From Candidatus Bathyarchaeota archaeon (GTDB lineage Archaea; Thermoproteota; Bathyarchaeia; Bathyarchaeales; Bathyarchaeaceae): DNA of 40,717 bases. The notes beneath the pieces were generated by a model that saw only the letters and a program-made list of their open reading frames with translations, was not told where the DNA came from and did no database searches. A program made the position numbers and the translations under genes. The DNA lies in contig JAUWDY010000012.1 in the NCBI GenBank assembly GCA_030608565.1, positions 1 through 40,717 of the forward strand. Reading direction: 5' to 3'. How positions within the stretch are numbered: position 1 is the stretch's first letter; each line of letters opens with the position of its first letter. Shown here piece by piece: positions 33,551 to 33,968 of this stretch.

Positions 33551-33630
33551 ACTGGTCTCTTATTCTTGCTTTGCGTCGTAGAATGTGGGTTCGCAGCTTT
33601 CAGCTATGAACCTTTTTTTTGCAATGATGG

Positions 33631-33740
33631 TGCTCCGGCCGGGATTTGAACCCGGGTCGGCGGCTTTCTTCCATAATCAAACGTCGAGAGGCCGTCATAC
33701 ATGGTTCATTTCATGTTTAACCTGACTATACTACCGGAGC
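33631..33740 (-). tRNA. tRNA-Glu (CUC anticodon), probably with two introns
   Basis: The acceptor arms GCTCCGG and CCGGAGC pair fully, and the T arm CCGGG-TTCAAAT-CCCGG and discriminator A are canonical; CCA is not encoded. The anticodon loop CTCTCGA gives anticodon CUC (33686-33688). The gene is 110 bases, about 35 too long. A 16-base insert lies between the D arm and the anticodon arm (33697-33712), and about 19 bases after the anticodon at 37/38 (33666-33684); removing both gives a normal 75-base tRNA. Such positions fit archaeal bulge-helix-bulge introns. The first insert overlaps a perfect hairpin (ACATG/CATGT). The exact splice points are inferred; A27-C43 would be a mismatch in the anticodon stem. 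Confidence 0.85.
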
Positions 33741-33770
33741 AACAGAAGATTGGATTCCTATGAGAGATAA

Positions 33771-33968
33771 ATATCTTTTTATATGCGTTGAATTGTGGAA
33801 ACCAATCTCTCTGAAATAGTGATCTATCTCTTCCTGCCTTGCCGGGATTACCTTGTTACGTGTACGATAAATGCGAGGGTGGAAACCAAAAGATTTTAAG
33901 GTTTGATATGTGTCCTCAAGCATTTTCGAGTCAAAAATCTTTAACTCAATTCAGGTTCTTTTCTTGCC
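33771..33968 (-). pseudogene. LAGLIDADG homing-endonuclease-like remnant
   Basis: The minus strand reads GKKRT, a TGA (33951-33953), then IELKIFDSKMLEDTYQTLKS followed by FGFHPRIYRTR, ARQEEID and YFREIGFHNSTHIKRY. The last part strongly resembles the C-terminal region of LAGLIDADG homing endonucleases (YFxEIGxxNxxHxxRY, from memory). The piece has no N-terminal LAGLIDADG motif and one in-frame stop. It ends about 30 bases before tRNA-Glu, which has intron-like inserts, suggesting that an endonuclease gene once lived at this tRNA. Confidence 0.5.
33776..33785 (-). promoter_or_regulatory. TATA box of tRNA-Glu
   Basis: CATATAAAAAG reads on the minus strand 36-45 bases before the tRNA 5' end, the usual place for an archaeal tRNA promoter. 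The bases are the same ones that encode HIKR in the endonuclease remnant, so the promoter may have been taken from that fragment or overlaps it. Confidence 0.5.

Follow-up and report, generated by a model that had tools for sequence, protein, structure and literature searches.

At positions 33631-33740 of a 40,717-nucleotide stretch of archaeal DNA (hereafter the window, meaning the whole stretch that was analysed), an original prediction placed a tRNA-Glu gene interrupted by two inserts, which raises the question of whether this locus encodes a functional tRNA and, if so, where exactly the inserts lie and how they could be removed. We are highly confident that the locus encodes a functional tRNA-Glu(CTC) in a Bathyarchaeon, and that its two introns are removed by enzymatic splicing. 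The Rfam tRNA model RF00005 covers 33631-33740 on the minus strand (40.4 bits, E 2.8e-7), and the excess length, predicted at about 35 bases, proves to be exactly 35 (16 + 19). Including its encoded 3' CCA, the gene runs 33740→33628 on the minus strand; from 33740 to 33631 it reads GCTCCGGTAGTATAGTCAGGTTAA-ACATGAAATGAACCAT-GTATGACGGCCTCTCG-ACGTTTGATTATGGAAGAA-AGCCGCCGACCCGGGTTCAAATCCCGGCCGGAGCA, followed by the CCA. The identity of the gene is established by the spliced form: when both inserts are deleted, a 75-nt tRNA remains that ARAGORN calls tRNA-Glu(ctc). When the 16-nt insert is kept ARAGORN calls no tRNA at all, and when the 19-nt insert alone is kept it finds a tRNA whose anticodon is misread as Arg(TCT). 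The features of the locus are as follows.

33628..33740, minus strand: tRNA-Glu(CTC) gene including the CCA (33630-33628); from Rfam RF00005, with the CCA read from the sequence, and ARAGORN on the spliced form
33717..33740, minus strand: exon 1, nucleotides 1-21 (tRNA numbering), GCTCCGGTAGTATAGTCAGGTTAA; from alignment with uninterrupted relatives
33701..33716, minus strand: intron 1, 16 nt, position 21/22, ACATGAAATGAACCAT; missing in the orthologue of a congener (G001), and placed by the bulge–helix–bulge (BHB) pairing and the Rfam D-loop placement
33685..33700, minus strand: exon 2, nucleotides 22-37, GTATGACGGCCTCTCG, with anticodon CTC; from relatives, ARAGORN and the Rfam alignment
33666..33684, minus strand: intron 2, 19 nt, canonical position 37/38, ACGTTTGATTATGGAAGAA; from intron-free relatives and BHB pairing
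33631..33665, minus strand: exon 3, nucleotides 38-73, with the 3' side of the anticodon arm, the variable loop, the T arm, the acceptor 3' strand and A73; from relatives and the Rfam alignment
33762..33782, minus strand: TATA-like, AT-rich stretch atataaaaagatatttatc, lying some 25-40 bases upstream of the first tRNA nucleotide; read from the sequence

The TATA-like stretch is the probable promoter of the gene. Over the 40-kb window, neither ARAGORN nor an Rfam scan with default filters returned a tRNA, and the gene was recovered with Rfam by a restricted scan and by a genome search; general tRNA finders can thus overlook intron-bearing genes of this kind. The Rfam score is also lower than that of most other tRNAs of the genome, which is the sole point in favour of a decaying tRNA-Glu(CTC) pseudogene with random inserts. 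Such decay is extremely improbable, as the acceptor and T arms form all their pairs, the CCA is encoded, a pattern search of the genome found no second tRNA-Glu(CTC), and several genera carry these same inserts with BHB pairs that covary.

Position of the 16-nt insert

The shorter insert had been predicted at 25/26, between the D arm and the anticodon arm, but the comparison with relatives moves it to 21/22 (33716 to 33701), between A21 and G22 at the boundary of the D loop and the D stem (GGTTAA^ACATGAAATGAACCAT^GTATGACGG). Uninterrupted relatives read AA-GTAT-NNCGGCC at this site, with GTAT as nucleotides 22-25. A pattern search across 257 genomes of the class found the D-arm sequence without the insert in 90 and the insert-bearing pattern, which matches both tRNA-Glu isoacceptors, in 18. 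The tRNA-Glu(CTC) gene of the congener G001, orthologous in that it adjoins the same M32 peptidase, has the 37/38 intron only, and G016 and others carry tRNA-Glu homologues without any insert. Deleting ACATGAAATGAACCAT gives back the uninterrupted sequence of the relatives exactly, and none of the other 16-nt cuts does so, as judged by inspection; hence we place the insert at 21/22. In the Rfam tRNA alignment the insert falls within the D loop, and the D stem is GUAU:GUAU.

A cut at 25/26 would make GAAATGAACCATGTAT the noncanonical intron, and ACAT would then form the 3' side of the D stem. This removes an equal length, and the product, 78 nt with CCA, is still called tRNA-Glu by ARAGORN; however, it leaves an A12-C23 mismatch, it relies on a D-stem strand found in no uninterrupted relative (GTAT stands there instead), and it breaks the BHB rule set out below, whose predicted cuts are AA^A and AT^G. 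With the relatives' sequences and the Rfam placement in the D loop both contradicting it, we dismissed position 25/26 as very unlikely. Spliced RNA under the 21/22 model would read GGTTAAGTATGACGGCCTCTCGAGCCGCC, and this model is incompatible with RNA that reads TTAAACATGACGG or retains ACATGAAATGAACCAT; a spliced cDNA reading TTAAGTATGACGG would be incompatible with the 25/26 cut. The position of the 19-base insert at 37/38 stands as predicted, since intron-free relatives and BHB pairing agree on it. The locus therefore does combine a canonical with a noncanonical intron, the latter at another position than first proposed.

Bulge–helix–bulge pairing and the predicted fold

A check for BHB structure at each boundary had been proposed with the prediction, and such pairing is found at both. 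We used a rule in which exon GGYY is paired to a four-base stretch that ends two before the 3' cut, while the first three bases past the 5' bulge pair with those preceding the central helix. At 21/22 the central helix GGTT/AACC forms all four pairs, flanked by the bulges AA^A and AT^G and the inner helix CAT/ATG; all seven pairs form in the window's gene, which 0.07% of shuffles achieve. Across both tRNA-Glu isoacceptors, 18 related D-arm inserts form 119 of 126 BHB pairs, versus 52 ± 5.5 for shuffled sequences. Compensatory changes occur in the inner helix (CAT/ATG, CTT/AAG, CAC/GTG) and in the central helix (T·G to C-G). The cuts predicted from this pairing fall at the same junction as the one deduced from relatives. 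At 37/38 the central helix CTCT/GAAG forms three of four pairs, with one C-A mismatch, and the inner helix CGT/ATG all three; in the congener G001 the mismatched position is properly paired and the central helix is complete (4/4).

The 21/22 insert thus has a 4-bp central helix and 3-nt bulges with the predicted cut between the second and third bulge residues, in a tRNA that is otherwise complete and that exact removal restores to normal. What it lacks is the mark of the strict hBHBh' subtype, a well-paired outer helix adjoining the 3' bulge; only the D stem could serve as one, with a large internal loop in between, which makes the motif one of relaxed type. Motifs of this type count as archaeal tRNA introns (PMC6379350), so that the departure is from the strict subtype only. 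An outer helix GTCA/TGAC was considered for this site and dropped, because the TTC genes and G004 do not preserve it.

The main caveat is that folding the unspliced RNA does not give the BHB as the predicted minimum-energy structure. That structure is a hairpin pairing ACAUG/CAUGU together with GUUA/UGAC, for which nearest-neighbour folding gives −7.7 kcal/mol locally versus −1.5 for the BHB, and −36.3 versus −18.2 kcal/mol over the full-length precursor. The prediction that the 16-base insert has a hairpin of its own therefore holds for the minimum-energy fold, but the hairpin, unlike the BHB pairing, is not conserved. Only certain closer CTC copies share it, and it is absent from others that keep the BHB pairing; it is likewise absent from two more distant homologues, G099 and G138, and from the TTC genes, all of which retain the BHB pairing. 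Since the hairpin is missing where the BHB pairing persists, we infer that the BHB is the structure under selection. The stability of the hairpin is what would favour an insert that is never spliced and persists as an extended D arm in the mature tRNA. Its absence from these homologues speaks against such retention, as do the nucleotides that it consumes from the D and anticodon stems, the parting of the two D-stem strands that retention would entail, and the splicing of Sulfolobus tokodaii tRNA-Glu at the same site; taken together, these leave retention with almost no likelihood.

Splicing enzymes and a proposed pathway

The genome has genes for two EndA paralogues, alpha (G000:C12) and beta (G000:C28), and for an RtcB ligase. 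The nearest match of EndA alpha is the alpha chain of Aeropyrum pernix (3p1z), to which its region GFYGKPIGIPKPKNMDF aligns gap-free, and it retains the catalytic Tyr, His and Lys; EndA beta is without the catalytic His. We take the GFYGKPIGIPKPKNMDF region to be the site of the Crenarchaea-specific loop, following our reading of published work on lysine 44. The two paralogues are consistent with a splicing endonuclease of (αβ)2 type that carries this loop and would be suited to relaxed motifs, with a subunit assembly that is putative. An (αβ)2 pattern has been tied to relaxed motifs and noncanonical introns (PMC6379350, PMC12397907). As a separate observation, in the stretch G000:C12:66406-66861 the EndA alpha gene adjoins a tRNA gene, which lies at 66406-66479 on the minus strand and has the anticodon arm ATGGCCTGCAGAGCCAT.

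Cleavage, ligation and aminoacylation of the precursor, as they may be read from these genes and motifs, could take the following course. The 3' part of intron 1, AACC, would pair with the conserved exon GGTT (18-20a) to form the central helix of the relaxed BHB, and an (αβ)2-type EndA would then cut within both three-base bulges (AA^A and AT^G). The second intron would be excised likewise at 37/38, and an RtcB-type ligase would join the exons, giving a normal tRNA of 75 nt followed by the encoded CCA. Excision of intron 1 would be needed because it parts the D-stem strands and sequesters G18 and G19.

Introns across the lineage and in known systems

Two introns in one tRNA gene had been thought unusual for this lineage, yet noncanonical tRNA introns are common in it. 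The sister gene tRNA-Glu(TTC) of the same genome (L061, G000:C27:17173-17596, minus strand) also has two, of 30 nt at 10/11 and 21 nt at 21/22, and its spliced form is recognised as tRNA-Glu(ttc); in the close relatives G003, G001, G016, G005 and G007 this gene has a third, at 37/38. Many tRNA genes carry introns: a tRNA-Gln of the window's genome has one at 10/11, and several further tRNA genes are clearly over length. The 10/11 introns show a central helix of CGGT with GCCG, ACCG or GCCA and are cut at 10/11; a GGTA/TGCC helix was dropped for these introns, as two surplus bases were left over.

Both tRNA-Gln genes (L081, G000:C31 near 11999; L085, C35 near 1804) have apparent introns near 10/11, and inserts near the acceptor/D junction and within the D arm also appear to be present in a tRNA-Ser and a tRNA-Lys (L082, C26 near 6085; L084, C3 near 47730). 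For all four genes the Rfam match is confined to inner parts, and default tools may truncate such genes.

On the family's DNA-ligase tree the CTC 21/22 intron is patchy: G000 and G003 have it and their sister G001 is without it, while G005, G007 and G011 have it and G014, which groups with them, is without it. This distribution implies repeated gain or loss. Tentatively, and with somewhat less than even confidence, we suggest that the 21/22 introns of the two Bathyarchaeia tRNA-Glu isoacceptors share an origin, were copied between the genes by transposition or gene conversion and were then lost repeatedly; if true, this would document the spread of an intron between paralogous tRNA genes outside Thermoproteales. 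The clean presence/absence pair within one genus is useful for studies of intron gain and loss.

The gene is not of a new type; it is a new example, from Bathyarchaeia, of splicing already shown experimentally in Sulfolobus. Both tRNA-Glu genes of S. tokodaii, UUC and CUC, carry D-arm introns that were confirmed by cDNA, with the cuts fixed in vitro with recombinant EndA; in tRNA-Glu(UUC) the borders fall at about nucleotides 22-26, with CAAGT in the spliced cDNA (PMC4307357). The isoacceptors, the D-arm location and the BHB-like structure are the same here, and the UUC border falls at the same boundary of D loop and D stem, a likeness by site. Unlike the S. tokodaii genes, the window's gene adds a 37/38 intron and belongs to Bathyarchaeia, to which it extends the well-documented D-arm splicing of tRNA-Glu. 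A literature search on Bathyarchaeia or Bathyarchaeota together with tRNA introns, partial in its coverage, found no direct report.

Thermoproteales such as Pyrobaculum and Thermofilum have multiple-intron tRNA genes (PMC3218864, PMC4090602, PMC4033280, PMC8450103). They share with the window's gene several BHB introns per tRNA gene (two or three in their case), the mixture of canonical and noncanonical sites and an EndA of (αβ)2 type; they differ in lineage and in the naming of positions, those of PMC4090602 (20/21, 22/23, 25/26 and others) neighbouring 21/22. Caldiarchaeum subterraneum has tRNA introns in the D, V and T arms, including a multi-intron tRNA-Glu (PMC3293823). It resembles the present case as a multi-intron tRNA-Glu outside the classical Crenarchaeota with noncanonical sites that include the D arm, a likeness drawn at the level of arms, and it belongs to another lineage. 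In further cases (L090, L093 and L095, from class family f15 and named records), a tRNA-Glu(CTC) carries a short D-arm intron and a T-loop insert; the D-arm intron has a CGGT/GCCG central helix and lies one base upstream, at 20/21, apparently with an independent origin.
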